Position numbers and translations under genes: made by a program. A model generated the notes under the pieces. That model was not told the DNA's origin and made no database searches. It saw only the letters and a list, made by a program, of their open reading frames with translations. Positions 14,471 through 39,609 of a stretch of DNA of 64,000 nucleotides are shown in pieces (position 1 is the first letter of the stretch; the number at the start of each line of letters is the position of its first letter). The stretch lies in NCBI GenBank assembly GCA_947034885.2, contig OX344751.2:14260001-14324000 (forward strand). Reading direction: 5' to 3'. This DNA comes from Thuidium tamariscinum (Eukaryota > Streptophyta > Bryopsida > Hypnales > Thuidiaceae).

Positions 14471-14490
14471 CGGTTCTAGATCTAGAACCG
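14471..14490. repeat. Perfect 20-bp palindrome in the 3.6-kb element, copy 1
   Basis: cggttctagatctagaaccg is a perfect palindrome (22 bp with the flanking c and g). It is found at the equivalent place in copy 2 (42381-42400). Another palindrome, GGAACGGATCCGTTCC, is at 14561-14576. Both are candidates for binding a dimeric protein or forming a hairpin. Confidence 0.8.
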
Positions 14491-17229: not shown

Positions 17230-17905
17230 GGCAACTATCCGGAAAACTACCTCACTTCCCTCCTAGCCGCATGTCCCGTTCCTCACACACTCACAATCAC
17301 AAAAAAACTAAACTGCCCGTAATAACCACCTACACAAAAACACACACACAGTCCTCCGCGCCCACCAGCGCCTGGGCGCACCGTCTGAAACCCGCGCACA
17401 CTGACAATCGCCCACCCTAACAAGTACCAGGCGCTACCATTGACAGCCGCGCCACAAAAAGTCGCGCCACCAAACATACGCAGAAAACAAACTCACAGAA
17501 AGGCAGAAAACGCTGAGAGTTTAAAAACGCACAATGAAGCGCCTAAGAGCAAATGGGCCAACTGAAAATGTCAGGCCTTATATACTTTCCAGAAATGGAT
17601 CCGGTCTTCCGTTCCTGATCATCCGTTCCCATCTGATCGGTCCAAGTTCGGAAAGCATCCGTTCCGTTCTGGAACTGAATTCGGATAGAATCCGTTCCGG
17701 TTTCGTAGGGTTCGGAATTATTTCCGTTCCGGTTTTCCATCCTCCTAAACCGGATATATTCCGCTACCGGTTGCTTATAGCATTATCCGGTACTACTACA
17801 GGATCTTACCCGTTCCAGGAGAAATCCCGGTTACTAAGTTCCTGACTTCCGCCCCCAAGACTTGCTAAACGAAAAAAAATCAAAAATATACCTTGCCACA
17901 CAGGG

Positions 17906-18320
17906 TGCTAATAGATACTTCTACCTTACTTACTACGTAGACCTTATACATCATGCAAATTGTTACACAACCTTATCAAGTATCTATGTGCACAACAACA
18001 TCTACCAACAATAAATACTATTGATCTCATTCCCCCCCCCATGAATACGTTTGCTTATCAAGTATCAAAGATCATAAACATTAATAGCTGAAATTTTCAA
18101 ATGCTTTTAGTAATTCAAAAAATATATTAGATTTCATTTGGGTTGCCATATATTGGTGCTCCATATATATACTACGTATTATATATGTTGCACATGTACA
18201 TTCTCTCTATAACATAGACTATATATCATTCTATACTTATGTATGCTACTAGACTATGCCGATCTATTCATATGAATGCCGAAAGTGTTCATTGGGAATA
18301 GGTCAGTTGAAAGTACTGGT
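17906..18320. other. AT-rich stretch downstream of the kinase-like gene
   Basis: Non-coding AT-rich DNA with repeated tatata-like runs lies between the 3.6-kb element and the kinase-like gene's end. It presumably holds that gene's 3' flank. No clear structure is seen. Confidence 0.4.
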
Positions 18321-19766
18321 TCAACGATTGATGATGCGTGCCAAACCGCCCGCATTCTCCGGGCCGTCTTTGCAAGGGCGCTCCAAGTACGCACGAAATG
18401 ACATTGCCAATGCTTGGTGATCAAATTTGCTCATGCTTGCCGTTTTCATGTTCAACTTGTGGTACTCCTCTGACATGTAATCCCTGTTAATTGCCATGGC
18501 TATTTTGCACACCGCGTACTCCTCTGTTGCAATGGATAAACTTGGAATTATTTGCACATTTTTGTCTTTTTCGTGCAAATATGCAATCTTCTTTGTCACC
18601 CACCAACGGTTTTGCAAAGCAGCGTCCATCTCTTGTTTGGATGTGAACACATACAATGACTTCGGTGGTTCTGTAACGTACGAAGTCATGCCCTAATTGC
18701 ACACTCCAATGTACACGCGCGACTCGTTCGCGGGAAAGTGCAACATAATGTTGTCCAGTGAAATATCATTGTGCAAATATCCTGCATCGTGCACCGCATG
18801 CATGATATGCAGCAACGCCCATGCTAGCTCCGTATGTTTCTTCCGAAATTGTGCAAGATGGTCCGCGGCAATGACATCCGCATCCGTTGGCGAGCTATAT
18901 TGCAAGTGTATACGTATATTATCTAGATAAATTCTATCCAAATGCATCATCTTCCGCAAGGTCCCGCCATTCCACCAATATGCATATCCTTCATTCCTCC
19001 TTGCATGAACTGCAGAAAACCGTATCACTCCGGGATGGCAAATCCGCACCGCTATGGACTCGTTTTGGTGTTCCGCCTTTGCAAGATGAGGTAGCATCTA
19101 CTGTACATTAGATAGCTTTGCTGCAAACTCCCAATACTTAGGTATTTCACGGCATCCCCGAATTTGCACCCTCCGAATTGTTGCGTACCCACCTTTGGTC
19201 ATGACATCATCACAAAAAATCACGGTCGCCGTGTTTGAAAGTGCTATTAGATGCTTCCTGCCTTTCGTCAATTCAACCATTCCATCACTAGTTTTCCACC
19301 AACCCATAGATCCTCGTCTGTTCCTGGCAGACGTGAATGGAGCACATCGACCGACAAACAATTCAGCCCTTAGAATGACTTGCTCAAATGCGGCATCATG
19401 TTGACGGTGATGCTTCCCATACTTTGTTAAGATGTCCTTCGCATTCCACAACGCATCATGCACCTTATTTTTCAATAACTGCTCAAAGCCACTCTTATCC
19501 ATCTCACTATGCCATTGTGGAACAGAAACTGCATCCATAAACCGTCGCCACATGTCGTCCTTGAATTTTTTAGGACAGTCCTCATTGTAGCGAACATACT
19601 TCATCTGCAAGGACATCGTGCTCTCCGATTCGTAGAAATCCACGATCACTTTAATCATCATATTATTCAATGCTTCAGAGGGCTTGTTTGCATGTGCCTC
19701 CTCTTTAGATGGACCTGCCACCTCCTCTAGTTTCCTTTTACCCGCCTTCTTTGTTCGTGCCATCAT
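18321..19766 (-). pseudogene. Atypical protein-kinase-like gene carried by the hAT
   Basis: Starting at the MMARTKK methionine (19766), one frame runs about 480 codons with two in-frame TAGs (19100-19098 and 18695-18693) and no frameshift. The N-terminal third is basic and unrecognised. A glycine-loop-like TKGGYATIRRV is followed by SIAVRICHPGVIRF, then GGTLRKMM. The catalytic-loop motif is YLHNDISLDNIMLHF, where HND...N matches the kinase HxD...N pattern. The usual DFG position reads IGVCN-stop-G, which suggests an original N-W-G with TGG changed to TAG, so the metal-binding Asp may already have been replaced. The HND-I-S loop resembles fungal FunK1-like kinases more than plant receptor kinases, by eye only. 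GC-rich cluster B lies 160 bp upstream. The substrate is unknown. Confidence 0.65.
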
Positions 19767-19924
19767 GATAAAAATCACGTCAAAACTTCAAAAAAAAGCA
19801 ACAAGGGGGCCCCAATAATGTCACCCTTGCTTTCCCTAGGAGGGGAACCAATGGAGACTTAAGAACTTAAGCTACTAAACTTTCCACTCCACGCTTGCAA
19901 AATGCAAGGGAGAAAACAAGAGTG

Positions 19925-20207
19925 AGGGCGGACGGCCTAAACCGCCCCTCTTATACCCTGGCGGACGCCCTAAACCTGTGCGAACGACCCCGACGAGGCG
20001 CTGTCCGCTGTCAGCCGTCCGTGCGATCGGACGGTCGCGGACGGGCGGACGGATATGCGTCCGCCTTGTCAGACAGTAGCAGTCCGTTTGCCGACGCAAT
20101 GCACGTCGGAAACGCGTCCGCCCGATCGGGCGGACTAGAAGTCCGCTGTCCGATCGATCCGACGGACGACCATGATCGGGCGGGTGCCGTCCGCCTAATC
20201 CAACGGT
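19925..20207 (-). promoter_or_regulatory. GC-rich cluster B, putative promoter of kinase-like gene
   Basis: There are at least seven exact GGCGGAC/GTCCGCC motifs in about 280 bp. On the gene-proximal side the minus strand has TATAAGAGGGGCGG (19955-19942), about 185 bp before the start codon. The motif matches that of the hAT termini. The promoter role is inferred from position. Confidence 0.6.
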
Positions 20208-20650
20208 CTACTTTGTAAAAGGCCTTCATTTGAAATTTCACGTGAAGAGGGGCCAAAAAAATATAGAGAGGTTGAAATTTCTTAGAACATTTGTGTTCTA
20301 TGACAAATTTCCATTCAGAAATTGAAATTGCCTACTTTTTGTGAGATTCCAAAAAATAGGCTACATTGCGATATTTGGATTTTTTTGCTAAGTGCCTTAT
20401 TCATTTGAAAATTGAAGTGAAAAGGGCCGACAAAAATATGGAGAAGTTGGAATGTCATAGGACATTTATGTTCTATGACAAATTTCCATTCCACATTTGA
20501 AATTGTCTAGTTTTGATTTTTTTTCAAAAAATACGCCACGTAGCCATTTCTGGGTCTACTTTGTAAATGGCCTATTCATTTGAAATTTCACGTGAAGAGG
20601 GGCCAAAAAAAATATGGAGAGGTTGGAATGTCATAAACAATTGGAGAAAT
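20208..20650. repeat. Tandem repeat of about 175 bp, two and a half copies
   Basis: Units starting near 20208, 20389 and 20556 share the order tttgtaaa-ggcc, catttgaaatttcacgtgaa, gaggggccaaaaaaatat, gagaggttg, ttctatgacaaatttccatt. The array abuts cluster B directly. The copies are diverged, so the array is not very recent. Confidence 0.75.
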
Positions 20651-21238
20651 TGGAATGTCATTGAATTTCGACTACGGATGAGGAATTAGGGCCTCTCTTA
20701 TTTTATTCTCATAAATTTAAATAAACTAATATGTAAGTCTTCTATTTCTTTTAACCCCCAAATGACCAAGTACTGCCTTGACAATTTTCACAATTTTCAA
20801 AATGGGTCATCAAAATAATATTAGGTTCAAAGGCATAACAAGCATAACCCCAATCAAGTTTTTAGCTTATTAAATTCTACTTCAGAATTCTGAGTTGTTA
20901 AAACTATGTTTCAAATATAAGTTCGAGGAGGCATTGTAACCGGAGTACTAGAAAATAGGGGAAAATATCCCGATGCAATATTCATATTTAAATAATAACA
21001 ATAGCTACATATTGGTTAATTTTAATACTACAGGTCAAAGGTCCCATCTACAGATCCAATATTGTACTTACGCATTTCAAAAATTTGTATTTTCATAAAT
21101 ACTTATAGGTCCGTGAGTACCCCTCACCAACATTACAATACCATGCTTGCCACCACCTCCGGTACATGGCAGTGGATTACAATCATTACACCGTAGTGCA
21201 GACTAGCCACTACAAGAGTGTAGTCTTTTTGTTGTACT
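20651..21238. other. AT-rich stretch, no gene seen
   Basis: Non-coding DNA between the tandem repeat and the 3' end of the Gly/Tyr-rich gene. A small inverted motif, ccactacaagagtgtagt, lies near 21206-21223 and could be part of the gene's 3' flank. Confidence 0.4.
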
Positions 21239-21405
21239 TCACTCGGAATCTGAGTCGGTATCATCTCTCTGATTATGGCCTACAGAACTAGATCCATACA
21301 CCCCCATATATGGTCCTCCACCGTACACGTCTCCTGCTCCACTTCCCGCTCCTCCTTGTCCATAGTTCCCGTAATGAGGCCCTCCAAAGGTTGGAGGAGG
21401 AACTG

Positions 21406-21420
21406 AATCTCCATAGTAGG
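21406..21420. repeat. LINE target-site duplication, left copy
   Basis: aatctccatagtagg recurs at 28575-28589 directly after the poly(A) tract. The leading A bases are ambiguous with the tail, leaving at least 13 certain bases. Confidence 0.93.
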
Positions 21421-21895
21421 CTACCGGGGTTGGGAGCACGATGCGAATCGCAGGAGGAACGCCGGAGCCGACGTCCTGCCGATCTTCTTACTCAACTAAG
21501 TCATCGATCGCTCCCGGAAGAGATTATCCAGCACAGAAGGGGGGCGCATTCCGAGGGCGTGCGAATAGTGGTTTTGAATCTGGATTCTGACCACTCTCTC
21601 ATTCTCTGTTAGATTACTCGTCTTTTGAGATCTACTTTCGAACCCTAAATGCGTTTAGAGGTACTAAACAGGCTTAGCGGGCAGATCTCAGATCTGGATA
21701 CAGTAGCCACACCATATTCGACAGTATAAAATTTAGCCAGGTTACGGTGGGGACCCGTGAGTTTTCAGATCTAGGAAGTTGGATCGTTACACCCCAGATC
21801 TGGTTTAGTAGAAACAATATATAAACATCAGTGGAGGTTCAGCCACGAATCAGCTTAGTAGATATACAAAGATTCGGATCTAGAAAGCCGAATCG

Positions 21896-24180
21896 ATGGA
21901 ATCGTATAGCGACGTAGTCAGAAGAGGAAGATCATATTCGGCTGATGAATACCTGGAGCTACACCGTCAGCAAGCCGGACATGCCAGAACGGAGGGGTAC
22001 CACCACGGTTCCAGAGACACAAGGATGCCCCAACTTCGACCAGGTCCACAAAGCCAGATTCGCGCACAGCCTTCCGTACCAGTGCGTTAGCAAGCGCCAT
22101 TCAATGGAGCAGGGAGCCACGAGGAGCACACCCGGAACGGTTCCAAGGGAACGGACTTCACATGGAATCGGTTCCATAATGAGCGAGAGGAAGCGCAAAG
22201 GTCTTCACAGCAGGTTCCATCTTACAACCCTTTATCGGCAGAAGCAGAGGAAGCTCTTCCACAAAACCTAAAACGCAACTGGGCAGGTTTACTCCTCCGA
22301 GAACAGTAGGTACTCTCACATGAGATTATCGATCACTCATCTCTCACCCGTGAAATTTCTTTCTTGCAAGATCATGTAATTATTGCAAGCTTCATCGGAG
22401 GATATCTAGCAGATGAGAATATCGATGACTGGCTCTTAGATCTCGGGAAAATTCTGTCACCATATTGTATTTCCCTACACAAACCGGCAGGAAACGGTTT
22501 CAGATACGTGAAACTGCAATGTAAGGAGGCAGTAGACAAGGTGGTTAACCTCCCATTACATAGGTTTAATGGAGGTGAGGCTGCTTATCATAGATGGATC
22601 CCATCTTTCAAACCTGCATCCGCTTGCAGCATTCAACACCCTGTCTGGCTTACACTAGATAACGTACCTCTTGAGTTTACCCCCTTTTCTCGAATCATCG
22701 CCGGAATGCTAGGGACGGTTCGGGCTGTCGATATCCTCAACCCGGCGACTCATCCCCACAGATTTTGCGTAGACTTAAAAATCGAAGGTGGTTGGACATC
22801 AATGATACACATTGAGGGAGGACCCTACGGCCATGCAGAAATCCAAGTTAGTTACGAAGACGTGAGACTTAGCTGTGAAATTTGTAGGGACCCAACCCAT
22901 CTTGCAAACAAATGTCCAAACAAACAATGGAACCGCCACCTCGGGGACAGGAAACCACAGCATGCTACACATGGTAGAAACGCTGATCGAACATCCACGG
23001 ATGATTCGAACCAGAAGACCAACACCCGTAGACCAGCTTCCTCAGTCCAGTCTAGGGCAAACACATCTCGGAACCACCCTAGGAGAACCCCATCCAATTT
23101 GATCCAGCGCAACAATCGATCGGCTTTGCGCTCATCGACAGGCCCTGACGCAGAGGGTTTCATCCCCGTCGAATACAGAAGGAGAGGTAGATTTCAACGC
23201 AGATCGGAAACACCGGCCAGCTCGAGCCACTATTGGGCACGGCGTATATCTGTCGAGCGTAGAAGGAAGGAACGACACCAGCAAAGCATGGAACCGAAAC
23301 CAAACGATAGCAAGGATGGTCCTAACACGCCGATATCTAGCAATACCAACAGATCAAAAACCAGCTTACCGTCCCCCCCACCATTAGATCCACGGACAAC
23401 CCCGTACGGTTTTGCGAGGTAGAACAACTAGCCTCCCAACCTATACATGCTGGAAATCACTCGCCAAACCCACAGACTAAATCCCCACAATCGATCCCAA
23501 TAGATAGTGAAGCCTCTAATCAAAATAGACCTAGATCACTCGAGACTAACCCCAGAGCCAGTAGTCCACTGCGGGTGTTCAATATTCCCAAGAACACATC
23601 TCAATCAGTGTTAGTTGGTACACACTCATCAGCCAAACCAATTGAGAATACATGCCTAACGATAGTTCCACCCCAAACCGTTTCTCCACCACAGGGCATA
23701 AACTCGTTACTCGATTTATCAAATATACCTTGTGAACCTAGTAACTCACCCAACAGCTCTGCTAACATAACCTCTGAAAAATTAAAACAACCCTTAGAGC
23801 AAGATTTGTTCTTAGATGCACAACCTGATCTACCTAACACTAAAGACCTATCTAGACCTTCATCCCCAGGAGTAGATAACGGTACAACACTCGCAATTAG
23901 AGTCTTCAACCAAATCACTGGATCATTACCAAACTGGGCAACAACTAGCCTTAGTGAACTAGAACCAACCGTTAGACATCATACACCTATGCGAGCTATT
24001 AAGTCCTCAGCGAGAAATATCCGTGAAGCCCCGCACCAGTATAATACCCGGACAAATCAGCTCGGGTCGTCATCATCCGACAACACTCTCACCACCTGGG
24101 GCTATCCGGACAACCAAAAATCAAATCGACAGAGTGGTGTGGTGAGCTCCCAACAAAACACCCAAAAATCTTTACCATGA
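21896..24180 (+). pseudogene. LINE ORF1, RNA-binding protein with zinc knuckle
   Basis: ORF1 proteins of plant L1 elements bind the element RNA. The frame from MESYSDVVRRG (21896) passes a TAG at 22088-22090 and another near 22310, then runs open from 22364 to 23422. That part includes a DUF4283-like region (VWLTLDNVPLEF, with ILNPATHPHR downstream) and a CCHC knuckle, CEICRDPTHLANKC (C-x2-C-x4-H-x4-C). A frameshift near 23400-23420 moves the Pro/Ser/Asn-rich tail to another frame, which runs to 24180. The terminal TGA overlaps the ORF2 start codon as ATGA, suggesting translation coupling. Confidence 0.8.
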
Positions 24181-27100
24181 TTTTTAAAATTCTATCCCAA
24201 AACGTTCACGGTCTAAATGACCCCTCAACTGTCGATAACATGAGACAGTACCTACGTAGCTATCCAGTAGATTTCCTGTTCATCCAGGAACACAAACTCC
24301 GTGGTATTGGCGTAACTCAACTAGGTCCAAAACTTTGGAAACGAGCAGCGTATCTTAGCACTGAAGCTTCCCCAGGTTATACCGTAGACGGGAATAAAGC
24401 TGGCAAGGGTGGGGTGGCATCCTTCATTGCCCCCAAATGGAAAAGACTGATCGCTCAATCAGGTACACTTCTAGGAGGACGCGCACTTTGGTTTATCATT
24501 ACACACATCCCGGGGGGAGACATAGGATTTGTAAATATTTATGCTCCTAACTCAACTCATCTCAGATGCATATTATGGGAGACCCTAGCGAGGGAGCTCC
24601 CTAACACTTGTAGATGGTTTCTCATGGGTGACTTTAATATGGTCGAGTCCCGGAGAGACAAATCGAGCACATGCGGGCGTATGCTATCCGCGTAAGAAAG
24701 ACTGCTTTTCGAGGGACTCAAGGAAGCGTTACAGATCGAAGAAATCCCTCTGACCACCCCCAACCTGGTTTTCTCTTGGGATAACTCAAGATCTGCAAAC
24801 AATCGTATCATGGCTCGATTAGATAGAATCTACATCTTCAAGGATCCTATAGCTTGCCAACGGAGGGTCTCCCAATACAGAATTAGGGGGGATCACACAC
24901 GCTCAGACCACTGCCCTGTATTCATGACGATAGAGGTAGAGAAACCACCATCACGATCAAGCAGGTGGAAACTGTCCAATTTCCATCTTGATGAAGCTGA
25001 TGTTGGAATTAGAAAGGTATGGTCAGACGCTCCACAACACTCGTCTTTTTTTTCAAAACTCAGAAGAGTCACTAGGTGGTATCGAAGCTTTTGCATCCAG
25101 AAAGCTAGGCAATTTAAAGAAGTCGAAGAGTCTCTCAGATCTAACCTAGACAAAAAACAACAGGAGCTCCAAAATACACCTCTGTTAGAATTAGCACAAA
25201 AGGAGGTTGAGGCTGCTAGAGCTAACTTGGCAGGGGTAGAGCTTAGAAAGCTGGAAGGCCAAAAGGTTAGATCGAGAGCCAGGTGGAGATTATATGGCGA
25301 CCGAAATTCTTCCGTTTTCTTCCAGACAGTGAAAGAGGGGCCGATAAATACCACGATCATCCAACTACGGGATGAGAATGGAGTTATGCAGCATGAAAGA
25401 GCTCAATTAGAAACTATATGCACGAACTTCTACGCCAAATTATACGACCAACCGCCTCTGACTCCCCAAGACCTTTCTAACCGAGCTGAGATTCTAGCTT
25501 GCGTCAAATCCAGCCTCACCCCAACGATGATTCAAATTCTAGAATCACCACTTTCACAAGATGAACTCTACACAGCTCTCAAGCAAATGGCATCTGGAAG
25601 AAGTCCAGGGCCAGACAGAATTACGACGAAGTTTTTTTGTCAATTTTGGGACACGTTGGGAGCGGACTTCTCAAACATGATCAACAGAGCCATCCAGGAG
25701 GGACACTTCCCTGAAGGTATGACTTCAGGATCCATCATTCTATTATTTAAAGCTGGGGACGCAGCAAACCTATCTAATTGGCGCCCTATTACACTCCTGA
25801 ATGTTTCATATAAGATTGTTGCAAAGGCTTTGCAGATTAGATTGCAAGGGATTCTCCAGGAGATTATAAGCCCAGAGCAATCAGCTTTCTTACCTTCCAG
25901 GCACATCTTAACAAACATTCTCCTTTAGCATGAGACAATGGAGTGGGCTAAGGAATCTGACCAGGATCTAATTTTCCTTCAGTTAGACTTCACCAAAGCC
26001 TATGACACGGTTTCTTGGGACTTCCTTTTTCTTGTCATGAGACAAATGGGGTTTCCAGATTACTTTTGCCACATGGTTAAGATGCTTCTGCAGGATGCAT
26101 CAACTTCGGTGCTCCTAAATGGCACAAACACTTCTCCATTTAGCATCTTTCGTGGCGTGAGACAAGGGTGCCCACTGGCACCCTATCTCTTCCTCATTAT
26201 TGGCGAAGCATTATCTATGGCTGCATCGATGGAACAGAGTAAAGGTACTATCCAGGGCATTAAATTGCCAAACACTGACTCTCAACAATTTGTAGCTCAA
26301 TACGCTGATGATACAGGGCTATCCATTCTTGGGAAAGAAATATTTTTGCAGAACACAATACTCCTTTTACGCAAATTTGGTGCAGCATCAGGTCTTATCA
26401 TGAATTGGCCCAAATGCATTGGATACTGGTTCTCAAAACTATGTCGACCAGCATGGACAGACCTGTACGAATTTACTTGGGCTCCCCCAGGTTCACTAAC
26501 CAAACTTCTTGGTGCTCCTTTTGGGATAACATTGCAGACGGAAAATATTGATGAATTTCTTCAGGGAAAGATCAAGAAGAAACTCACATACTAGACTTCA
26601 CAGAAATTGTCACTTGTAGGGAGAGTCACCATTGTGAACACCATCCTCCTGTTGACTCTCTATTATTTTATAGCGATCTGGAGTGGATCTATCCAAGCAA
26701 TCAGGAACATTAGGGGAAGTCTGCGTGATTATCTATGGAGCGGCTCAGACCATCGTTCACGGGCAAGAGTCAACTGGGACGACTGTTGTCTCCCTAAAAC
26801 CATAGGTGGGCTAAAGTTATTAGATCCTGAGGTTTCCCTCACGGCTCTCCTTGCCAAATGGATTTGTTTTGCAATTGAGCCCGGAATATCCCACCTCAAA
26901 ATCCTGCTTAGATTTAGGATTGACAAACTCAAACCACATCCACGGGAAGGCTATTGGTTCCCCAACCCTGCCTGGCTTATGCTCCAACGACCATCAATAT
27001 CCCGTGGTTCCAGGGTATGGAACAGAATTACAAGCGCATGGAGACGCCTGACAAAATTTATCGAACCTGTCCCGCCCACCAATATCGATGAAACTCTCAC

Positions 27101-28442
27101 AACCAATCTGTGGTGGGCAACGAGCTTCATAGGTTCTAATTTTCAGTTTACCAGGTCTAGAGCTCGGGAACTTGCTCGAGAGGGACTCCGGACGATCCAG
27201 GATTTGTGGGATATGGATCGTCGCCACTTTAAATTGTGGGATGTAATTTTAGCTCGATTCAAGCTCACAGAGGACGATTATCAACCATGGCAGTTTTTAA
27301 TTTCGCACATTCCTTTAGAATGGATGGCGTTCCTCACTAAAGAAGCTGACTTTCTTCAAGCTGGCGAATGGGTAGGGTTATTCTCAAACCTCGATGACGA
27401 GATCCCTAGGCTAGTGTAGAAGGCAGGTAGTCAAGGGCTAGTGCTCTCACCAACCCAGATGACAGTCCTTACCATTCCCGCAGAAGTAACTCAAGCGACA
27501 GTCCGCCTAGTTTTGAGAAAACTAGCCTTCATCGACCCAAGACCAACTGTTACCACGCTTAGAGGTTTCACTCGTCGGATTCGAGTCATCCTGAGACAGC
27601 CTAGTAACACGAAGTTTCCCAACGCCTTTTTTTATGGAGACTTTCGCTCATTAGTTTTTGATCCTGGTAGATGGAAGTGGACAAACGGCCAATATCTCAT
27701 GTAATATTCGACGGCAGTTGGCAGGAAACTCATCATACAACCTAACAGCCTCAAGCGCCCTATCCCTTTGAAATGGCCAGACCTTCTCGACCAAGATTTC
27801 CTCCCCGATTGGCGCAACTTATGGCACAAGACGCGTTCACAGAAAGAAGCTGCTTTCTTGTGGTCTGTGTGGCATAATGCAGTGGCTGTGAACTCATGGA
27901 GGGCTCGAATTAACCCCGGCATTGATAGCAAATGTTGCTGTTGCACGGTCGGTATCCCGGAGACTCCTGTTCATAGATTCTACCTATGCCCAAGAGCTCT
28001 CGACGTATGGGACTACGCACAGTCAATCTTACTCCAAATCGAAGGGTCCCAATTGACAGCAGGACCGTTCCCTCGGTTCAACCCCATTCAGTGCATTTTC
28101 GGAGACCCAATTCCACGTAAGTTTAGCAAGGTTAAAATGATTTGGTCGCTTCTGAGGGGATCAGCTATTTGGATTATTTGGATCGCAAGAAATAGTCTTG
28201 TGTTCAATCAACACCCATGGCCGCAGGAGTTTGCTCAAACAGCTTTGTGGCAGGCCTTACTCGACTCCGGCAGAGCGGCTCAGCTCAGAACGCAGCAAGC
28301 TGCTCGCATCAGACCTCAACAAGCCCAGAACATTTGGCAGAAATTTGATCAGACCTGGCTGCGTTCTCCAGTCTTGGCTAGTAGGACTAACGAAATTATT
28401 CTTTGGCACAGTAAAGGCCCTATTAATCTCACTTTTACGTAG
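24177..28442 (+). pseudogene. LINE ORF2: endonuclease, reverse transcriptase, zinc-binding C-terminus
   Basis: One frame of 1421 codons has five in-frame stops (TAA 24693, TAG 25926, TAG 26592, TAG 27417, TAA 27702) and no frameshift. The endonuclease domain has SQNVHGLND, the Glu of FIQEHKLRG, GDFNMVES and SDHCPVF, all expected for AP-type endonucleases that nick target DNA. The RT domain has KMASGRSPGPDRI, LDFTKAYDTVSWDF, RGVRQGCPLAPYLF and the catalytic QYADDTG near 26299. The C-terminus near 27770-28020 matches the zinc-binding RT domain (FLWSVWHNAV, CCCCTVGIPETPVHRFYLC). The protein would nick target DNA and prime reverse transcription from the LINE RNA. Confidence 0.93.
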
Positions 28443-28599
28443 GTTCAGCATGTTTGGTTCCAACTGTGGCTCGGTTGGTTCGGTGGCCGGCTTTGGCTTG
28501 GCTCTGTTTTCTGTGTTTGTGTTCTTTTAATGCAGTGGGTTTGTCCCTCTTGTTCAAAAAAAAAAAAAAAAAAAAATCTCCATAGTAGGAGCCTCCTTC

Positions 28600-29774
28600 A
28601 TTTGAACGGCCATGGTAAGACCCTCCATGATGCCCATAATTTCCATATGAACCACCTCCACTAGACCTCGAATGGTATTGGGAGCCTTCTTGGGTAGAAG
28701 GAGCATTGTGCGCGGTTCCGGGGCTTCCTCCTACGATTTGAGAACGACTTTGCCCACCTCGTGGGTCATGTGTACCACGTTCACGTCCATAGTGCCCATC
28801 GTAACCATATTGTGGACCACGATCTTCTATGCTTCTCCGCATTGCCTCACGCATTTCATGCTCGTATTGAATGTCCTCTCGAGCTTCTCTACATTCATAC
28901 CTCTCTCCATCGGCCACGGGTGCAGTAGCCTCTTCAACATCATCATCATCATCTGGGACGAGCTCGTCTGCATCCGGCATCACTGTTGTAGGAAATCCAA
29001 ATTGGCCTCGATTGGACCATTCGGGCATGCAATCGCTTGCATTAGTCCAGCTCATATAAATGACTGCTTCGTTGCGATTGAGAGTCGCCACATCTTTTCC
29101 GTATATTGTGCGCCAATCAACATCTTTGTGAAGTACAATCTTTGCCCAGACCATGGCCATATTCGTATAATTCATGACATTTGGTTTGGAGTCACGTATA
29201 CCAGCATTACGCGTCACTTCATCATATCAGTGAACAAAGTGCCTATTGAGACACGTGGATGTTTGCCCTTCCCAACGGCGAACTTGTTGCGCTGCACGGT
29301 CCGATGCCCACAATTTGGCAATGTGCGTCATTTTCACGTACTTCTTGCACGTAGTGGCGGTCCAAACTTTCTTTGGTTCACTCTCTCATCCGGGTTCACC
29401 AACACACATTGGATCATTCCAATCATCCCAATTTATGCTTTGGGATTTCCCCTTGTTTTTCTTGTTTTCATCATGAGGCATGGTGGCGTTGACTAAAATG
29501 AGAGCAACTGATGACTTCGTTCACACTAATTCCAGCAATAAGAAATCGAAATGCTTCAAAGTTACAATGCGATGTAGTTTAGATGAAGTTGTAGTCCCTC
29601 AGAGCCTGATCATTACTTCAACTAAAGTTCGTTAAACATTTTAGTGATGATTAATGAAGCACAACCGTTTGCACACAATGTCGGAAGGGGTGCGCAGAGC
29701 CACAGATTAAAATCGGGCACTGGATTGTCCACTCCGGAGGGAAACAGTTGTAGCCAAATGAGCCGTCTGCCCCG
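28600..29774 (-). other. 5' part of cargo gene S1 and its upstream flank
   Basis: The coding portion of S1 upstream of the LINE lies at 28590-29481. The leader between the start codon and cluster C, 29482 to about 29774, has no ORF of note. It would hold the 5' untranslated region and core promoter. Confidence 0.5.
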
Positions 29775-30030
29775 CTTCTTATGCTGAGCCGACGGCCGGA
29801 CCGAGGCGGACGGCCAGATGCTCATCCGACGGCAGAGAGGCGGACACCAGAATCCAGCGGACAGAAATCGGCGTCCGCTGGATCGCACGGACATCGGGTG
29901 GACTCACCGAGAGACGGACGACACAGACGGTGCCCGTCGGGGGCGGATGCAGGGACGGACGGACCGACGGGCGGACGGGGCACCGAGGGGCGGATGGCGG
30001 CACCGATGGAAGAGCGGACGGACGGGCGGG
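29775..30030 (-). promoter_or_regulatory. GC-rich cluster C, putative promoter of gene S1
   Basis: It has at least three exact GGCGGAC motifs plus close variants (for example ggggcggatgg, cgtccgctgg). The gene-proximal edge reads CATAAGAAGCGGGG on the minus strand (29783-29770), closely resembling the TATA-containing edge of cluster B. It lies about 300 bp upstream of the S1 ATG. Confidence 0.55.
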
Positions 30031-31884
30031 GGGTTTGAAACCCTCAAAGACCTACATCGATACTTGAATTCTTGAAATTCATTGAGTAGGCAATTTACAC
30101 TGGTTTAGGTTCTGAAACTAGCCAAGTTGATGTTGAATCTTCTCGAAAATCAGAAATAAATGCTAGATTCTCTTTGCAATTTGCATGCATTTTGGGGAAT
30201 TTGAACACTTCATGGAATAACTATGACTTTAGGTTTCAATGTTCAAATTATATGTATCCAAAATTCACCTTAGGACCTGATAGAGAGGAATGATTTATAT
30301 TACTGTAGTACGTTTTCAATTTCAACAAAAATTAATTTCTTTTGGAAGAATTTGTAATTCTAGGAAATTATAATGATACTAGTCTTAAATATTGGAAATT
30401 GTCAATATCATTTGTTGAAATTCAGGTGATTCAAATTGTTCCAAACATAGTAACACACCTTCTATGACAAAGGAATATTCAAATTTAATGAAATTCCAAT
30501 TGAAAGTTGGAATCCTAAAGGATCATTCACTTTTGGCCCTTGTGGGGAAACATGGGATTTGTGATAGTACCTACGGGCTGAAATTTAATATTTGATCCTC
30601 GTTTTTAGTTTTTATAAACTTCTTCAAAAGATAAAAAAGTTGATTAACTTCCATGGAATGTAATTTTTTTCACAATTGATTCCCAATAACAACATTTATG
30701 ATCCAATGAACTCAAAATATTGAAAATAAGGGACGGGGGGTTGAAAAAAACTAGAACAATCTCACCATTGAGATTATTGTGTTTCAATCCCATGTTAGAG
30801 CTATTAATGATTTAGTTTTTCTTTCAATCTTGGACTTACTTGTACTTAACAATTTTTTGAATAATGAAAATCAAGCCTATTTTTCTTGAAATTTTTGTCT
30901 TAGAATTTCAACTCCCATCCAAGTTCTTCAAATTCCTTCAAAATTTTTAATTCAAGGTCCATACTCCGTACTCTATAGTTCCAAAAAATTCCACGAATAG
31001 CGATCAAAGTCATCTGATATTTTTGCCACTTTTTCCTAGATAAGTAAAGTACAAGATCCTAAGGTTAGATCTGAAGAAAAGTATTTTCTTGGTTTTCTTA
31101 TAGTGAATGCAACAGAAATGATAGTTCTGAATGGTTTGTAACAAAAAAATGGCCTTGGTCCTTTAAAGGTTAACAATAAAGGGAGAGATTTATATTTTAT
31201 AACCATGTTTTATTGCAAGACATTCTCAACTCTCAAGTTGTAACTTGTAAGGGCCTAATATAACAATTTCTAAACAAATTAGAAAAATGTATCACCATAC
31301 TTTCTACAATTCTACAGTTGGAAGATGGTGACATTCATGATTGCATTAGAGGATGAGTCAAATTTGAAAATGATGCAATTATACTTGAAAAAAGATTTCA
31401 AAATGTGAAAAATTATAGAATCCTTCATTTGAATGTAAGTGAATGTAAACATGAAGGAGTGTACTTCAAATGATTTTACCCCTTATTGCCTTACTGGTTT
31501 GCATTTAGAAATATGTAAAGAGTATATGTTTTCTCTATTAAAGTAGGGTGCATACATTTTTTAAATTAATAATGTGTTGGATCCTTGAATCATTCATCAA
31601 TTTATTTTCACTATTTATTATTTTATATGACACCCATAAAGCAAAAATGATGAAGAAGCTAGGGTTTAGGTTCTAGGGTTTAAGGTTTAGAGTTTGGGCT
31701 TGTCTACACTCTACAAAAGTGGACGTCGATGCTATTCGGATAGGGTATAGGGTTGAGGACTTACTTTCTTTAAAATTTTTAATGTGCAGAATGAAACTCA
31801 ATTTCACACATACATTGAACATTGGATGCTTTTCCAACCCTTCCCATTTTTACCCCTAAAAGCCCGCACTTTTTTTTTGGGATG
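30031..31884. other. Central non-coding region of the hAT
   Basis: AT-rich DNA without convincing ORFs separates the two leftward from the two rightward cargo genes. Apart from the telomere-like stretch at 31661-31698 I see no structure. Confidence 0.5.
31661..31698 (+). repeat. Degenerate plant telomere-like repeats
   Basis: agggtttaggttctagggtt followed by taaggtttagagtttggg holds about five imperfect units of the plant telomere repeat TTTAGGG. It may be chance, a telo-box-like regulatory motif, or a relic of end repair. Confidence 0.5.
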
Positions 31885-32860
31885 TATAGAAATTTTGGGT
31901 AGGTACCTACTACTTACGAGCGGGGATATCCAGATTTGAGGCTAAAATTTGAATGGAATTGACCAATGTGGGGGCAAGGAAGATCTGTCATATGCACCAA
32001 ATTTTCATGGCATTTGAAAATACCGGTCAGAAGTTATAGCCTAATATGTTACTTTTTTTTTGTAACAGGGCATTTCATGCAAATCAGAGAAAATCACTTA
32101 TTTCATAAACAAGAATTCCACAAATTCATTTTCTAGAGTTCTGTATACGCGTGAAGTTTTGAATCATTCCATTTTGATGAATGAGTCAAAAGTGATGTGG
32201 ATTTTCTGTTTCCGGGTAATTTTGGATTTCCTACTCTAAAATAAACTTTGAAATCCTTTATCTTACCCAACTTCCAATATTTTTGGACGAAAATAAAATC
32301 GTAGGATGTAGATACATTATTACAACATTTCAAATTTGCGACCATTGGAAATTTGGGATTGGGAATTTTCAATTCTATATTTCAACTGTAAATAATGTAG
32401 TGCGTTTTATCATTCTCTACTACTATGTATTTACTATTTTTTTCCTATACGTTGTACTATTCCAAATGATTTGAAAATTTTTAATCATGTGTCCAACTTC
32501 TGTAGGAAAACAAATCCAAAGAAGCACGACCATTTAGGTCATTTTTTCATAGAAATGTGAGCTTGGGAAGTGCAGCTGCCTTGTTTTTCGGCTTTCGCAG
32601 GGTAAAAAAAATGATTTCAGTTAATTTGAATGCTTATATCTTGCAATCCACTCGGTGGAAATGTTTGAAATTTTTACCACATGCTTTTGATACTATATAA
32701 TACAATATCCTACGATCAGATATGTCAAAAAAAGTTTTTTTCCAAAGATTTTGGTACTTGTACTAGAAATGGCAGTTTTGGTTTTTTGGAGGCAATTGGA
32801 GCGCTTTTGGTGAAAGTATATTGATGGTCCTTTAAGGGTTCAAGCTTTAAATATGACTTC
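31885..32860 (+). repeat. Dispersed repeat R, copy 2
   Basis: Shares with copies 1, 3 and 4 the series agaaattttgggtaggta, ataaactttgaaatcc, tgtagatacattattacaac, atcttgcaatccac and tcctttaagggtt. It lies just left of cluster D, as copy 4 lies just left of cluster F. Confidence 0.7.
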
Positions 32861-32944
32861 TGGAGAACCCAATGTTCAGTTTGGACTTGTAGAATCCAAT
32901 GTCGACTTTTCACTTCTGGAATCCAATGTTCAGTTTGGACTTGA

Positions 32945-33230
32945 AATCTGAGCGGTCGGCAGGGCGGACGCCTTTGTCAGACGCCTAGTCAGTCGGCAAG
33001 GCGGACAGGCAAGGCCGAAGGGCGGACGTTGGGCGGTCGACAGAGCGGACGTCCATCGGACGGGCGGATGGCTGGCGGGGCGGTCGGACGATAGGTCCGC
33101 CGGACGGGCCTGTCGTTGGACGACCCGAGGCGGACGCCCCGTACGACGACGGTCCGCACTGGCCGTCCGCCGGTCCAGTGCCGGACCGGTCTAGGTCTGG
33201 CGGTGGACGGGTATATGGTCGGACGGCCCC
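32945..33230 (+). promoter_or_regulatory. GC-rich cluster D, putative promoter of gene S2
   Basis: It has at least six GGCGGAC/GTCCGCC motifs (for example agggcggacgcc, aggcggacgcc, ccgtccgccgg). Its downstream edge has a TATA-like GTATATGG at 33211-33218, about 240 bp before the S2 ATG. Confidence 0.6.
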
Positions 33231-33456
33231 TTCATTTTCCCTCACTTCTTCTCTCCTCACGAAGTGCCCCAAGTTGGATGTGCTGCTTATTGCCACGTGT
33301 GAGTGCGTGGTGCTAGTTGCTCCTACTTGGCGGAGAGAAGGGGTCATTATTTTTTCACGTCGAAGCTTTGACCGATTGTATTACGAAGACACATTTCATA
33401 CCCTCCGGTTCACAGAATTTTGATTTGCAAGGGCTTGTAAATTCGGATTGTCTATC

Positions 33457-35671
33457 ATGGCTACAGACAGCGGTGCAGGTATTGATGGGATGAATTCAGG
33501 AGGTGACCAGAAAAAGCGAAATAAAGTGAAGGGGACTACACATGGACTACACTATGAAATTTTGGATGATCCGAACATCATAGCAGAGAGTGGTTGGGAA
33601 AATGAGACCGCAGATTATTGGACCTCTAAACTATGTAAGCAGTACATTAAAATGTACCACATCAACAAGTTGTGGCCTTGGGATGCACACGCACGCTAGA
33701 CTGCGGATTTCAACTATAAACCACACAGTTGCATTGACCCGCACTTTGTCCATTGAGCGACAGAGGTGTGGAGGGCCATGTTTGGCCCTAAACCAATGTC
33801 TAAAGGGTACATCAACTACAGCTTGGCGTCCATGGTGTATGCAGAACTGAGATTGAAACGCAAGGTGGATTGGAGCACGTTCCAAACAACAAAGAAGAAT
33901 CCTCTACTACTGTAGCAAAATCAAAAGGATATTCCTGATTCCTGGCCGCAGACGGCGCAGAGGGTACAACCAATCTTACAAAATCCAGCAACGCCTACAA
34001 CGATGGCCTTAGCAAGCGCATGTGCGAAACCGCAGTTGGATTCGAGGGAGACGACATCGAAAGTTATGAACGTTTCTGCGGTTCATGTGAATGACCAAAA
34101 CAAATCTCCCAACCGGGAAGAGCTCGTCAACAAAAATGGTGGCCCGTCTTCTCCGAAGACAGACCCCACGGACGAAGAGGTTGTAGGGGCCAATGTCACA
34201 ATTGGACATTATATAGACAACGGTGTTTTAGATAGTTTGGGATATGCAGCTCCAAATCCACAGTTGCCAACATCGGAGAGCCCATTGTGTACTCCAATCA
34301 TGCATTCAAGACACTAGAAGAAAACCCTGTTAGAATTTCAGAAATCACGTCATGTAGTTTGTGTTGTGGTCATGTTGCAAAACGCAGTCAAAATGCTGTG
34401 AAAACACAAAAAAACGCAGAAAAATGTTTTTTCTGCGTTTTTTTGTGTTTTCACAGCATTTTGACTGCGTTTTGCAACATGACCACAACACAAACTACAT
34501 GACGTGATTTCTGAAATTCTAACAGGGTTTTCTTCTAGTGAGAGGACCTGTCAAGAACGAATGTACAACAACCCAATGCTGCAAAGACGAATGTGATAGT
34601 GGATACATATGAGTTTATAAAAAAGTATCCACATTTGTCAAGTTTAGACTCAACTAGCTTCAAGAATCTTGTTGCAATGCCACAGATTCCGCATTTGGAA
34701 GGCTTGCTTGACCTTAGTATCAAGTGGAAGACAGTTGAAGAACGTTTGTTTCCATTTGAGCAACGGACTCAACAGAACGAGCCGGAAAGCAGTACTCCAC
34801 CGAAGAAAGTATATTGACCCGCTGACTTTCCACATGCCGCTCTGGCATTGACAAGAACTGCCACATGGATAGATGAATTGGCTCCAAGGGTTGGTGCGTT
34901 TGCCGATGAATTAGCATCCCTAGCTCCTACACTATTGAGCGATGCGACGGCTTTCCTGCACTTCACCAATCAAATGTTACCAATTCTCATGTCCGCGATT
35001 CATTGTGAAGAAAGCATGTTGAATTGAAGGAGGAGCTAAAAGACAGTGCAAGAGAAATTATAATGTTGAAGACTGAGCTCAACAAGGAACTAGAAAAACC
35101 CGAATACGAGGAAAGGATTCAAAGGACGGTTGAATCATTGAAATGTATTGAACCAAGTCAAGGGACTCAAGGTAGCGATCAACTCTCTCTTCCAATGGAC
35201 AAGGGCAAAGCTCATGTCGAGCCAGACCAACAAACTTTGCCGATTGGCCGTAAAAGTTGGCTTGACTTGCAAAAAGAATTGGACCAGTCCAATGCCGAAA
35301 AAGCCCTTCTTCAGTCCAAGTTGGATCAAATGATACGAGTGCAGGCCATGGATGAATATTTGCCTAGGAGCGGATCGGAGTCTCGTTGGTTGGGATGGGT
35401 ACAAAAACTTCAAGACCCACCCTTATTAGCAGCTCGAGAAATGAACAAGCTTCGTACGATTGCATTGAAGGGTAACGATGAATGCAATGCCGTCGAGAAA
35501 CATTTGAAGAAGTTCGAGAGCGAGGTGGATCGCCATCCAATTGAGAGTGCTTCAATCACATGTTGGGGAAACACAGATGCTATGATGGAGCGCTTGAACC
35601 ACACAAAGAAAGCGGAGGGTGGAAATATCAATTGGGCCTTGGAAGTAGAGGAAGGATGGGTCCCTTACTAA
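33457..35671 (+). pseudogene. Cargo gene S2: conserved unknown domain plus coiled coil
   Basis: From ATG 33457 one frame runs to the MITE at 34312 with stops TAG 33697, TGA 33754 and TAG 33913. The domain CKQYIKMYHINKLW, DPHFVH-stop-ATEV, MVYAELRLKRKVDW is paralogous to gene S1 on the other strand, and TGA follows HFVH in both. After the MITE and a frameshift, the region near 34590-35010 contains a segment like FADELASLAPTLLSD. From 35024 a Leu/Lys/Glu-rich coiled coil follows (LKEELKDSAREIIMLKTEL, KSWLDLQKELDQSNAEKALL). The TAA at 35669-35671 is in frame with the RING segment that follows, so S2 and the RING part may once have been one protein. Function unknown. Confidence 0.6.
34312..34540. 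mobile_element. Palindromic CACTA-type MITE
   Basis: 229 bp, almost perfectly self-complementary over its whole length with a minimal loop near 34425. It begins CACTAGAAGAAAACCC and ends with the reverse complement ...CTTCTAGTG. It is flanked by the 3-bp duplication aga (34309-34311 and 34541-34543). CACTA ends and a 3-bp TSD place it with CACTA elements. It encodes nothing and interrupts gene S2. Confidence 0.9.
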
Positions 35672-35710
35672 ACGCTTTCAGCACACATCAACAATAAGGA
35701 GAAGCGTGTT

Positions 35711-36823
35711 ATGCATAATTTTGATGCAGGTCATAAAATGTTGGATGGTATTTGTACAGTTTGCCAATACGCTTTTGGACCTGAAGGAGCCATAACCTTG
35801 GGCCATTGTGGCCACACTTTTCACATGCGGTGCATCATTCAAGCATCAATGTTTAGCTCGGTTTGTGCCGAATGTCGTTCTCCTTTGAGTCCTAGGTTTT
35901 ATGAATTGTTTGGACTCTTGGATGTTATGCCCCCCGGCCAGGAATACAATAGGTGGACCCTTCCATTGGACCAAGGGCCATACGAATTTGTGAATTATAA
36001 GCATTGGGGAAAACTTCTACAATGGAACCCAACAGAACGGAAGCATGCATTGTACGATGAAGTTGATGGTCCAGTGGATGCTTTCAATTGGATGACCCAA
36101 ACGAACGAGGTGGAAATACGTGCCCATTCAATTGACGATGATGAGGGTCGTGAATTGTTTTGTCGCAATATGGGGGGGCATTGGAGCGTGCAACGTAATA
36201 AGTTCTTCCGGTTTCCAGAGAAGCACGTGGAGAAAACAAAAGGTGGAGAATGGGTTGCCGTGGAGGATTCAGAAGAATTCAAGGAACAATATGCGGCATA
36301 CAACCACGGTTTGATAGGTCGGGCCTTGTTGTTGTCAAAGTTGGAAGAAGCTGCTAAATATCGTGCTTCCGTGGACATAGATGCGGAATGGAACACAAGC
36401 GAACCAATGGTGGAGGTGGTGGAGGCGTTTGACCGGCGGGTTGGGGAAATTATAAAGTAGTAGAGGACACTTCTATTCGAAGGATGTACAACCGAAAAAT
36501 CATTGAATGAATTCTCATTTGAAGTGGCCAACAAAGTGGTAAACGAGGTCTTACTTCGATTGCAGTCTACTTTGTCAGCCTTGAAGTTGAGGTCTGTAGA
36601 TTTGACTCCCAAAAGAGAGAAGAAACGGAAGTTGGAAGATGATGATGATTATACAATGGACATAGCAGAAGCATTCAAAGTAGTTGAGTGGATTAACAAA
36701 TCCGCACGGCTAGCTAGCCCTGAGGCCCAAGCTCGTCGAGAAAGTCTAAGAAGTGTAGCTCGACGCACTAAAGATGAATCGTCTCGTAGTTCGGGAGAGG
36801 GTAGTAGTAGTAAAACAAAGTAG
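35711..36823 (+). pseudogene. RING-H2 segment with basic C-terminal tail
   Basis: An open block of 249 codons has a RING-type zinc finger near its start. The first pair is CTVC, then HCGHTFHMRC supplies the middle ligands, then CAEC follows about ten residues later, the C-x2-C...C-x-H-x2-H-x2-C...C-x2-C pattern of RING-H2 ubiquitin ligases. The rest has no recognised domain. It ends in a double stop (TAG TAG at 36458-36463), but the same frame reopens (LNEFSFEVANKVVNEVLL) and runs to 36823 with a basic, nuclear-signal-like KREKKRKLEDDDD. The frame is also shared with the coiled-coil block upstream across the TAA at 35669. If expressed it would be predicted to recruit an E2 enzyme; the target is unknown. 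Confidence 0.65.
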
Positions 36824-37814
36824 ACATGGACCTATACGTTTTATATGAGTTTTTGATTGAACCATCGTATTGTATGGACTATGGATGGTTAGATGGTGAT
36901 GTGGATTTTAGAAGGATAGAGCAATACTAGGTAAACGTACACAGAATATGCTTTGACTTATTATCAGTTTTTAATATGAACATATATATGGAATTATTTA
37001 TCTATCTATTCATTTATCTATCTATTTATGTATGTATCAATTAGTCAATGTACGTATTCACTATGCACAATACTTTTTGATGTGGAATGTATGCTATTAG
37101 AGGTATGGTATTGGATGTAAGAAATTATGATTGAATATTATAATCTTTGAATTCTTAATTGATTTTGATTTGTTTTGTTTCTGTATATGATCTCTAATAT
37201 GCCTAGTTTCAATTGGCATGGTTACCATGCAGAAAAAGAAATACACAACTTATAAAAATGTTTGTTGTTTGTTCAATTTGAACAAATTCGTCGAAGCTCA
37301 AAATAGGCCTTGGACATTTATGGGTAAACACTAGAGGTGTTTCCAATAAAATATTATTTTTAGTAAACATGTATAGTTGTGAAATAATTTCTAAGAACTA
37401 CTTCTGTTGGTAGATTTGAAGTTGCTTTCTATGAGCAAATCCTTAGAACTTGAAATTTGGCATACATATTATCAACATAGAGATGATCTCATACCAAGAA
37501 TTTTATGGCCAAATTTTAATTTCTCAATCTTTGCTTCTTTGGAAGGGTGTCAAAGTTGGTAGCATTGGAATTTTAGTCACAACCACACATGTACGTAGAT
37601 TTTGAAATATCTTTTTCTGGGCAAATCTTTTGGCCTTGAAATTTGACGCATGTGTTATTAACATAGAGACGATCTTGTGCAGAAAATTAAATGTAAAAAA
37701 AACAATTTTTGAGCCCTAGGGAGGGCATCAAAGATGGCAGCAGCAGGGGATTTTTTTTCCATGTGACAGCAAGAATTCGTAAATGAAGTAGACCTTACTG
37801 TATATGTTTTATGC
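36824..37814. other. AT-rich stretch downstream of the RING segment
   Basis: No ORF is supported. It contains a degenerate tetranucleotide run, tatctatctattcatttatc, near 36999-37035. Two related passages near 37430-37520 and 37600-37690 share phrases such as gagcaaatcctt/gggcaaatctttt, cttgaaatttg and ttatcaacatagagatgatct, suggesting a diverged duplication. Confidence 0.5.
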
Positions 37815-37970
37815 ACGGTCAGTCCGCCTGGACTGAAGTCGCCGTCCGCCCCGACCGAACTGGCCGTCTGCCCTGACCGATTTTGCCATCCGCTTCGATT
37901 CAGCGACTATTGCAACGGGTATTTGACTGTCTGCCCCAACGGTCAGCTGCGCTCAGTTTACTATAAGTAG
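37815..37970 (+). promoter_or_regulatory. GC-rich cluster E, putative promoter of the hAT transposase
   Basis: Two exact GTCCGCC motifs (agtccgcctgg, ccgtccgcccc) occur with several variants (ccgtctgccc, ccatccgctt). A TATA-like CTATAAGTAG lies at 37961-37970, about 230 bp upstream of the transposase ATG. It is the weakest cluster but is in the same relative position as the others. Confidence 0.55.
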
Positions 37971-38923
37971 ACTGAGAGAAGTCATTTGTAAGCACTCCTG
38001 ATGAACTGAACACTAAGATTTCCAAGGGCTAGGCGTTGCAAATTTATTTGTGTCCCTTGCTTGGTAATGCATAGTTTGGTGGAAGGGGGGGCTTTCATTT
38101 TGAAGGCTTTTTGCACTCAGTGCTTATTTGATTGTAGACTTTTACAACACAGTGCTAACGTTACCAATTACAATTGAAGGGAAAAAGAATTCAATATGAG
38201 CAAAGACTTCACCACTTGGTACACGATCCCGGAAACAAACAAAATACAATGCAAGGCTTGCAAGTGTGTGTTCGCCCGAAAAAACTAGCCGTATGTTGAG
38301 CCACTTGGGATACGAAGGCCCTACGGGACAGCGTGATAGGGGCATCGGCTTGTGCTCGTAGTTGACATCCAGAACAAAATCCTTATTTGTTAATTGCAAA
38401 GGGCTGTTTCCAAAAAGACCTGTTGCGGACGGAACGGATGGCAACGACATGCCAATGTCCACAAGCAATCTTTTAAATGATAGGGGCACGCCGTGTTCTA
38501 CGCAAGAAGATTCATGTACCGCACCGGAAGAAGTGGTCGCTGTGGGTTTGCAAATAACTCCAAATACGGAATCAGGTGGTAATCAGCATACTTCGAGGGC
38601 ATCAAGCAGTAGGCCTGCAACGCAGAGTAGGCTAGTGGATGGATTTGATGAAGTCAACAGACGCAAATTACATGCAACGTGGGCTCATTTTTTTTATTCG
38701 GCGAATATACCATTTTCAGTAGCTCACAATCCAGCCTTCCGGGAAGCGGTGAAGTTGACGGCTGAGTTTAAAAAGTCCTACACTCCTCCATCATACAATG
38801 ATCTGCGACATAAATTGCTTGAGCAAGCGAAGTCAGATATTCAAACGAAGTTGCTTCTGAGGACTGAAGACAGTGTGAGGAAGTTCGGAGCAACAGTGTC
38901 TTTTGATGGATGGAGCTCGGTGA

Positions 38924-38928
38924 CAAAC
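38924..38928. repeat. 5-bp TSD of 3.6-kb element copy 2, left
   Basis: caaac directly precedes TGTGGCAAG and recurs at 42556-42560 directly after GCGACA. Joining the flanks restores the hAT transposase frame at SSVTN-RPLIN. Confidence 0.93.
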
Positions 38929-39250
38929 TGTGGCAAGACATATTTTTGATCTTTCCATTTAAAGTCAGTATGGAGCGGAAACTCCGGAAAGTCGAAAATT
39001 TAGCAACCGGATTTGTTCAGGGAACGGGTAAGATCCAGAAGTAGTACCAGATAATGTTGTAGAGACCGGTGGCAGAATAATTCCGGTTTATTACGACGGA
39101 ATACCGGAACGGAAAAATTCCGGACCCTACAGAACGGATTCTATCCGGATTAAGTCCCAGAACGGAACGAATGATTTCCGGACTTGGACCGATCGGATGA
39201 GAACGGGAACGGATGATCAGGAACGGAAGACCGGATCCATTTCTGGAAAG

Positions 39251-39258
39251 TATATAAG
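39251..39258 (+). promoter_or_regulatory. TATA box of the 3.6-kb element
   Basis: TATATAAG, conserved in copy 1 within an otherwise diverged region. It lies about 355 bp upstream of the ORF start at 39610. The stretch around it (ttctggaaagtatataaggc) is essentially identical in both copies, which argues for function. Confidence 0.7.
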
Positions 39259-39609
39259 GCCTGACATTTTCAGTTGGCCCATTTGCTCTCAGGCGCTTCG
39301 TTGTGTGTTTTTCAACCCTTAGCGTTTTCCGCCTTTTCTGTGAGTTGGTTTTCCGCGCGTGTTTGGTGGCGCAATTTTCTGTGACGCGGCTGTTAGTATT
39401 AGCAGCGGTTGTTTTGTCAGAGCGGGCAGTTGTCAGCGGCGCGGGTTTCAGACTGTGCGCTGAGGCGCTGGTGTGTGGAGAGGAGTGTGTGTGTGTATGT
39501 GCAGGTGGTTATTACGGGCAGATTACTTTTGTATTTGTGATTGTGAGTGTGTGTGAGGAACGGGACGTGCGGCTAGGAGAGGAGTGAGGTAGTTTTCCGG
39601 ATAGTTGCC

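Follow-up and report, generated by a model that had tools for sequence, protein, structure and literature searches.

A decayed hAT element and its four genes

The window, a stretch of 64,000 nucleotides (C3:14260001-14324000 in a genome of 363 Mb and 19 contigs, which we searched), holds a decayed copy of a hAT element (Table 1). The genome is that of a land plant, to judge by the CCCTAAA repeats at the start of C3, which are complementary to TTTAGGG, and by 37 WRKY matches, of which many are single exons. Its 15-bp TIRs, CAGGG(C/T)TGTGCGGAC, lie at 13340-13354 and 47892-47906 and agree at 14 of 15 bases, and they are flanked by the 8-bp TSD ACGGAGCT at 13332-13339 and 47907-47914; short TIRs and a TSD of this length are those of the hAT superfamily. 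No further TIR-like site with fewer than three mismatches occurs in the window. Nested insertions account for the length of the copy (a LINE, a different element of 3.6 kb present twice, and a small palindrome), and by arithmetic the element is about 20 kb long when these are taken out.

Table 1. Positions in the window of the element, its genes and its motif arrays.
Feature	Position	Strand	Content or state	Basis or remarks
hAT element, decayed copy	13340..47906	+	34,567 bp	TIRs, TSD, sister copies
Array A, left end	13350..13595		8 CGGAC	
Kinase-like gene	18321..19763	-	stops interrupt frame	Pkinase profile match
Array B, putative kinase promoter	19929..20193		15 CGGAC	TATAAG at 19955-19950, minus strand
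S1 gene	21239..29481	-	split by LINE at about 21421-28574	ORFs, sister copies
Array C, putative S1 promoter	29797..30023		12 CGGAC	TATA mutated to CATAAG, 29783-29778
Array D, putative S2 promoter	32965..33224		13 CGGAC	TATATG at 33212-33217
S2 gene	33457..36823	+	S1-like domain and RING finger, broken	palindromic insert at 34312-34540
Array E, putative transposase promoter, decayed	37815..37960		2 CGGAC	TATAAG at 37962-37967
hAT transposase gene	38196..45096	+		BED-like finger, DUF659, hAT dimerisation domain
Array F, right end	47460..47896		19 CGGAC	not the start of any gene

The two 3.6 kb copies (14317-17901 and 38926-42555) are inverted relative to each other and carry a 571-aa ORF, for which nothing above cut-off was found in Pfam; their likeness to a third copy, located in a sister element, is 90 and 98%. 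The palindrome within S2 is perfect, with 113-bp arms, and is not present in the sister copies compared.

The element encodes a kinase-like protein, S1, S2 with its RING finger and the hAT transposase, and every one of these genes is broken in the window. The Pkinase match (cut-off 31.7) falls below cut-off in the window copy and in a sister copy (23.5 bits) and lies above it in family IV (35.6), a relative described below. The genome contains at least 150 matches to the kinase (150 scored of 505 candidates) and at least 150 to S1 (150 scored of 238 candidates). The RING finger of S2 matches zf-RING_2 at 8.1e-07. The transposase gene is interrupted by a 3.6 kb insert at about 38932-42555 and, upstream of that insert, by breaks in the frame; it matches both DUF659 (PF04937, 2.8e-24, 86 bits against a cut-off of 34.7) and Dimer_Tnp_hAT (PF05699, 9.8e-07, 28.9 bits against 21.4), the C-terminal dimerisation domain of hAT transposases. 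One sister copy has a zf-BED match (PF02892, 8.3e-04) that, at 19.8 bits, is just under the cut-off of 20.6; in the same Pfam search the proteins of families II and IV had no zf-BED entry.

S1 and S2 have a domain of about 110 residues in common. Its fold is predicted with fair confidence, no Pfam family matches it above cut-off (one S1 has a sub-threshold zf-C3HC match) and structure searches found no solved structure resembling the prediction, so that reading the domain as SANT is unproven.

Motif arrays at the ends and above the genes

The original prediction placed clusters of GGCGGAC at both ends of the element and before each of its four genes, and this is what we see. The heptamer occurs 37 times in the window where 3.0 are expected, a number reached by 0 of 100 shuffles, and 31 of the 37 fall in six clusters (A 3, B 7, C 3, D 6, E 2, F 10), with 6 elsewhere. 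When a cluster is defined as four or more CGGAC sites with gaps of up to 120 bp, arrays A, B, C, D and F take up 67 of the 115 CGGAC sites of the element and 48 lie outside. In each of these five arrays, both CGGAC and GCGGAC are more frequent than in any of 500 dinucleotide shuffles of that array. In the window array E is weak (2 CGGAC, reached by 44 of 500 shuffles; 2 GCGGAC, reached by 1 of 500) and stronger in three sister copies, which have 7, 7 and 5 CGGAC, the first two being one duplication (550 of 550 bases identical around D).

The density of the motif was also predicted to exceed that of other GC-rich DNA, which agrees with our two controls. GCGGAC reaches 36, 23 and 29 per kb in arrays B, C and D and 0 in three stretches of inserted arms in the window; because these arms are less GC-rich (about 52-58%) than arrays A-D and F (64-71%), the shuffles were added as a second control. 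A position weight matrix derived from A and F of two copies, the check named in the original prediction, was a poor mixture of strands. It ranked F, D, B, A and C on top and failed to single out E, which with 4 hits ties with background near 5.7, 16.7 and 39.7 kb.

We calculate that the edge of the CGGAC sites facing the gene is separated from the ATG by 166 bp for B, 316 for C, 233 for D and 346 for E, close to the 160-300 bp suggested beforehand. The TATA-like box expected on the gene side of each internal cluster is present at B, D and E and lost at C, where two of three sister copies read TATAAG and the third has no such stretch.

Sister copy 2 (C1:21379247-21404757, 25,511 bases) is better preserved. 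It has six CGGAC clusters, corresponding to A-F, and no others along its 25,511 bases; they contain 85 of its 112 CGGAC sites, and 27 are scattered. The motif type of these arrays, GCGGACGG, contains two CpGs.

An AT-rich module lies beside D (32129-32780), near F (45347-46024 and 46625-47312) and at the left window edge (1-600). Its copies are roughly 70-83% alike in pieces, and the two near F are inverted relative to each other, hinting that an "AT-rich module plus array" was duplicated.

Related families in the same genome

The transposase has at least 145 matches in the genome, the number scored among 604 candidates, and they divide into 73 of family I, that of the window element, and 72 of family II, whose transposase is 56-59% identical in amino acids. 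Among the matches scored, those to the kinase, S1 and S2 fall mainly in the same two groups; a further group of relatives, on C11 and C2, appears among the kinase and S2 matches. A family II copy at C8:1173243-1195714, flanked by the 8-bp TSD CAGCCTGG and read in parts amounting to 9.4 kb, has the gene order S1(+), kinase(-), S2(+), transposase(+), as judged by the places of the matches.

A third family, IV, is represented by a copy nested in a family I copy (joined L037-L040 coordinates 14987-33955, 8-bp TSD GGATACTT). Read as a whole, it shows transposase(+), kinase(-) and S2(+), and S1 was not seen in it. Its transposase has at least 136 matches (136 scored of 615 candidates), which brings the three families to at least 281. 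Since these matches are 95-100% alike and include many long open frames, family IV was probably active recently. Over 334 codons its transposase is 36% identical to that of family II. The gene orders of families II and IV thus differ from that of family I; the array layout is the same.

The transposases of families I and II differ by a dN of 0.35 and a dS of 1.53 (252 codons), and their S1 genes by 0.18 and 1.56 (139 codons); for the kinase (86 codons) and S2 (29 codons) dN is 0.40 and 0.46, with dS beyond measure. Silent sites are therefore at or near saturation (dS 1.5 to infinite). The original prediction had spoken of cargo genes, a term that we drop. Because the kinase and the RING protein recur in all three families and dN is well below dS for the transposase and S1, with which the short kinase and S2 stretches agree, the kinase, S1, S2 and the transposase look like the element's own gene set rather than random cargo.

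Turnover and shift of the motif

Five pairs of arrays, those of the kinase, S2, transposase and S1 genes and of the right end, were aligned between families I and II. Four of the five scores are within the range of 9-mer block shuffles, and the fifth, that of S2, equals the best of 100 such shuffles. GCGGAC nevertheless reaches 23-50 per kb in the eight promoters of the two families, that of the family I transposase being taken from sister copy 2, and at 27 and 34 per kb at the ends. Because four of the five array pairs align no better than shuffles, silent sites are near saturation and the density of GCGGAC is retained, the comparison indicates that the sites have been replaced while the motif was kept. 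The prediction that each gene's promoter shares the terminal motif holds up when the diverged families II and IV are brought in, the latter with a motif shifted at end and promoters together.

In family IV the motif is shifted. The density of GCGGAC drops to 1.9 per kb at its right end and, in its promoters, to 0, 2.4 and 11 per kb, and at end and promoters alike it is replaced by GACGGCC and [T/C]GACGG; the array words are TGGACGGCC or TCGACGG, where families I and II have GCGGACGG. The shift is partial, as clusters of CGGAC persist at both family IV ends (11 and 7 sites). Every array contains the GACGG core, at 12-51 per kb against 2-4 in the controls. In 6-mer excess, all three family IV promoters correlate best with the family IV end (0.22, 0.32 and 0.45; at most 0.18 with the others) and seven of the eight family I and II promoters are closer to the family I ends than to the family IV end. 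The exception is the family II kinase array (0.26 with the family IV end, 0.25 with the family I ends, 0.20 with its own right end). Three GC-rich control stretches give correlations of 0.06 or lower.

TATA layout in three families

We examined the stretch before the ATG of 11 genes (four of family I, four of family II and three of family IV), taking S1 of family I from sister copy 2 because the window copy has no box. A TATA[AT][AG] box lies 165-302 bp before the ATG in all 11, with one match per gene apart from two overlapping matches in the family IV kinase; shuffled 400-bp stretches contain such a box in 2-24% of cases. The 400 bp above the box hold 4-45 motif cores, and between box and ATG there are 0-4. 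The left terminal array doubles as the S1 promoter array in family II and as the transposase promoter array in family IV.

The motif elsewhere in the genome

Genome-wide, the triple motif gives 449 and 491 occurrences and its reversed control 9 and 2. Among the matches listed, 30 triple-motif loci merge into 17 clusters, all on C1, of which 14 resemble these elements and three do not; the two double-motif loci examined are both without similarity to them.

Reduced derivatives of the element also occur. All eight sampled, a biased set given that they were found through the motif itself, have at least one D-type array and an F array. None of the 13 D-type arrays at these eight loci has a TATA box within 100 bp on its outer side, nothing in the derivatives matched the element's coding parts at the DNA level, and their longest stop-to-stop frames are 152-211 aa. 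Because such gene-less derivatives keep arrays with neither TATA box nor gene, the arrays may also serve something besides promoters, or may hitchhike. One derivative, L041:126-6969 (C1:12790126-12796969), has both ends and the 8-bp TSD TTCCAAGC, together with inverted AT-rich cores, tandem repeats and D-type arrays.

Discussion

The original observation is confirmed, and it is stronger than its author knew. At the level of sequence, the comparisons demonstrate a common motif, a promoter layout, conservation through turnover of sites and a change that family IV made in parallel. The persistence of the layout in distant relatives suggests that movement of the element and control of its genes go through a single recognition system. 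We infer who the binder is and that a single protein reads ends and promoters. We propose that arrays of the GCGGACGG type would be binding sites for one DNA-binding protein encoded by the element, most likely the transposase acting through its N-terminal BED-like finger. At both ends the arrays would assemble the transposition complex; just above the TATA boxes they would tune transcription of the kinase, S1, S2 and the transposase jointly. Protein and motif would drift together, giving a family-specific variant at ends and promoters alike. As to the sign of control, repression by excess transposase is a guess.

That the arrays are bound by one element protein, and that the element forms a self-contained regulon of ends and gene promoters, has in our estimate an even chance of being right. 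In its favor count the restriction of clusters to six places in sister copy 2, the TATA layout of 11 of 11 genes, the parallel shift in family IV, turnover with the motif kept, and the union of left end and promoter in one array in families II and IV. Against it count the D-type arrays that gene-less derivatives keep without TATA box or gene, the family II kinase array that is slightly closer to the family IV end, the partial nature of the family IV shift, and the chance that copying within an element, and not a common binder, keeps its arrays alike.

Ac is a hAT element with a short TIR, an 8-bp TSD and one gene, and in En/Spm TNPA controls the element's own promoter. Like Ac/Ds and Herves, the present element has a hAT transposase, a short TIR, an 8-bp TSD and a subterminal motif, of the kind that the Herves transposase is described as binding (PMC3143072); it differs from Ac/Ds in having four genes, each with its own array. 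The transposase is our first candidate reader because of its borderline BED match and this property of Herves. TNPA is described as an element-encoded protein on subterminal repeats (PMC2613891), and here the arrays front several genes. The element does not belong to CACTA, as it has CAGGG ends and an 8-bp TSD in place of CACTA ends and a 3-bp TSD.

The closest working model comes from another superfamily. VANC21 of the Mutator-like VANDAL21 of Arabidopsis is described as binding a short motif in noncoding, including terminal, regions of its own element (PMC5735166), a related VANC as using a different motif, and the arrays as evolving by tandem-repeat turnover (PMC5735166; PMC10398659). A multi-gene element with motif arrays in noncoding and terminal DNA, family-specific motifs and repeat turnover are common to both systems. 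Ours differs in its hAT transposase, its TIRs and 8-bp TSD and in arrays placed at the ends and above TATA boxes; the likeness considered here is that of the motif arrays and their turnover. With hAT domains in place of a Mutator-like transposase, the element is not a VANDAL. By analogy with VANC, S1 and S2 are second candidates for the reader.

This analogy leads to an alternative in which S1, S2 or both, and not the transposase, would bind the arrays and keep the element unmethylated, ends and promoters having the same motif because both must stay open. We regard it as unlikely, if worth keeping in mind. The VANC precedent of element-specific motifs and array turnover (PMC5735166; PMC10398659) speaks for it, as do the domain common to S1 and S2, the conservation of S1 between families I and II and the two CpGs of the motif. 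CpG transitions outpace other transitions in the four arrays compared, and the same holds in two coding stretches and one AT-rich stretch, so that this signal is not special to arrays. DNA binding by the S domain is moreover unproven, given that it has neither an above-cut-off Pfam family nor a solved relative, and the family IV copy shows S2 without S1.

It is less probable still that two proteins are at work, a host transcription factor, or a GC-rich promoter type, at the internal arrays and the transposase at the ends, with the likeness due to common origin or array copying. Arrays D and F have similar AT-rich DNA next to them, so that copying inside the element, rather than a common binder, might indeed keep the arrays alike, and three of the 17 triple-motif clusters and both double-motif loci are unlike these elements. 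Yet 14 of the 17 clusters sampled belong to these families, and a common host factor would hold the promoter motif constant, whereas in family IV it differs in parallel at end and promoters. We consider it most doubtful that the arrays serve transposition only, the internal ones being extra transposase sites that fold or compact the 20 kb element and their position above genes being incidental. The derivatives fit such a role: all eight in our biased sample keep D-type and F arrays, with no TATA box beside any of the 13 D-type arrays, no coding DNA match and longest frames of 152-211 aa, and one has both ends and a TSD. The arrays of sister copy 2, however, lie solely at the ends and above TATA boxes, a layout that fits all 11 genes.

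That one motif can couple transposition to gene control is already known in outline for a few elements, and what is new here is a hAT version of that principle. The comparison makes it testable, with three families of different gene order in the same genome and a single joint shift of end and promoter motif. We are evenly divided between belief and doubt over the wider proposal that in this land plant a clan of multi-gene hAT elements forms a regulon of its own, in which one element protein would read a family-specific motif for end synapsis and gene control, motif and reader would co-evolve so that families are regulated apart in the same nucleus, and the kinase and RING protein would be part of the control and not cargo. 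If the binding is real, it would explain how several large DNA transposon families are regulated separately in one nucleus, and it would make the kinase and the RING protein standing parts of a hAT element.

An inward TATAAGG occurs near 13643, immediately within the family I left end, where no gene starts. It is kept in sister copy 2 and in one of the two small elements examined, with occurrences at L033 and L041, and is perhaps a relic of a left-end promoter like those of families II and IV.
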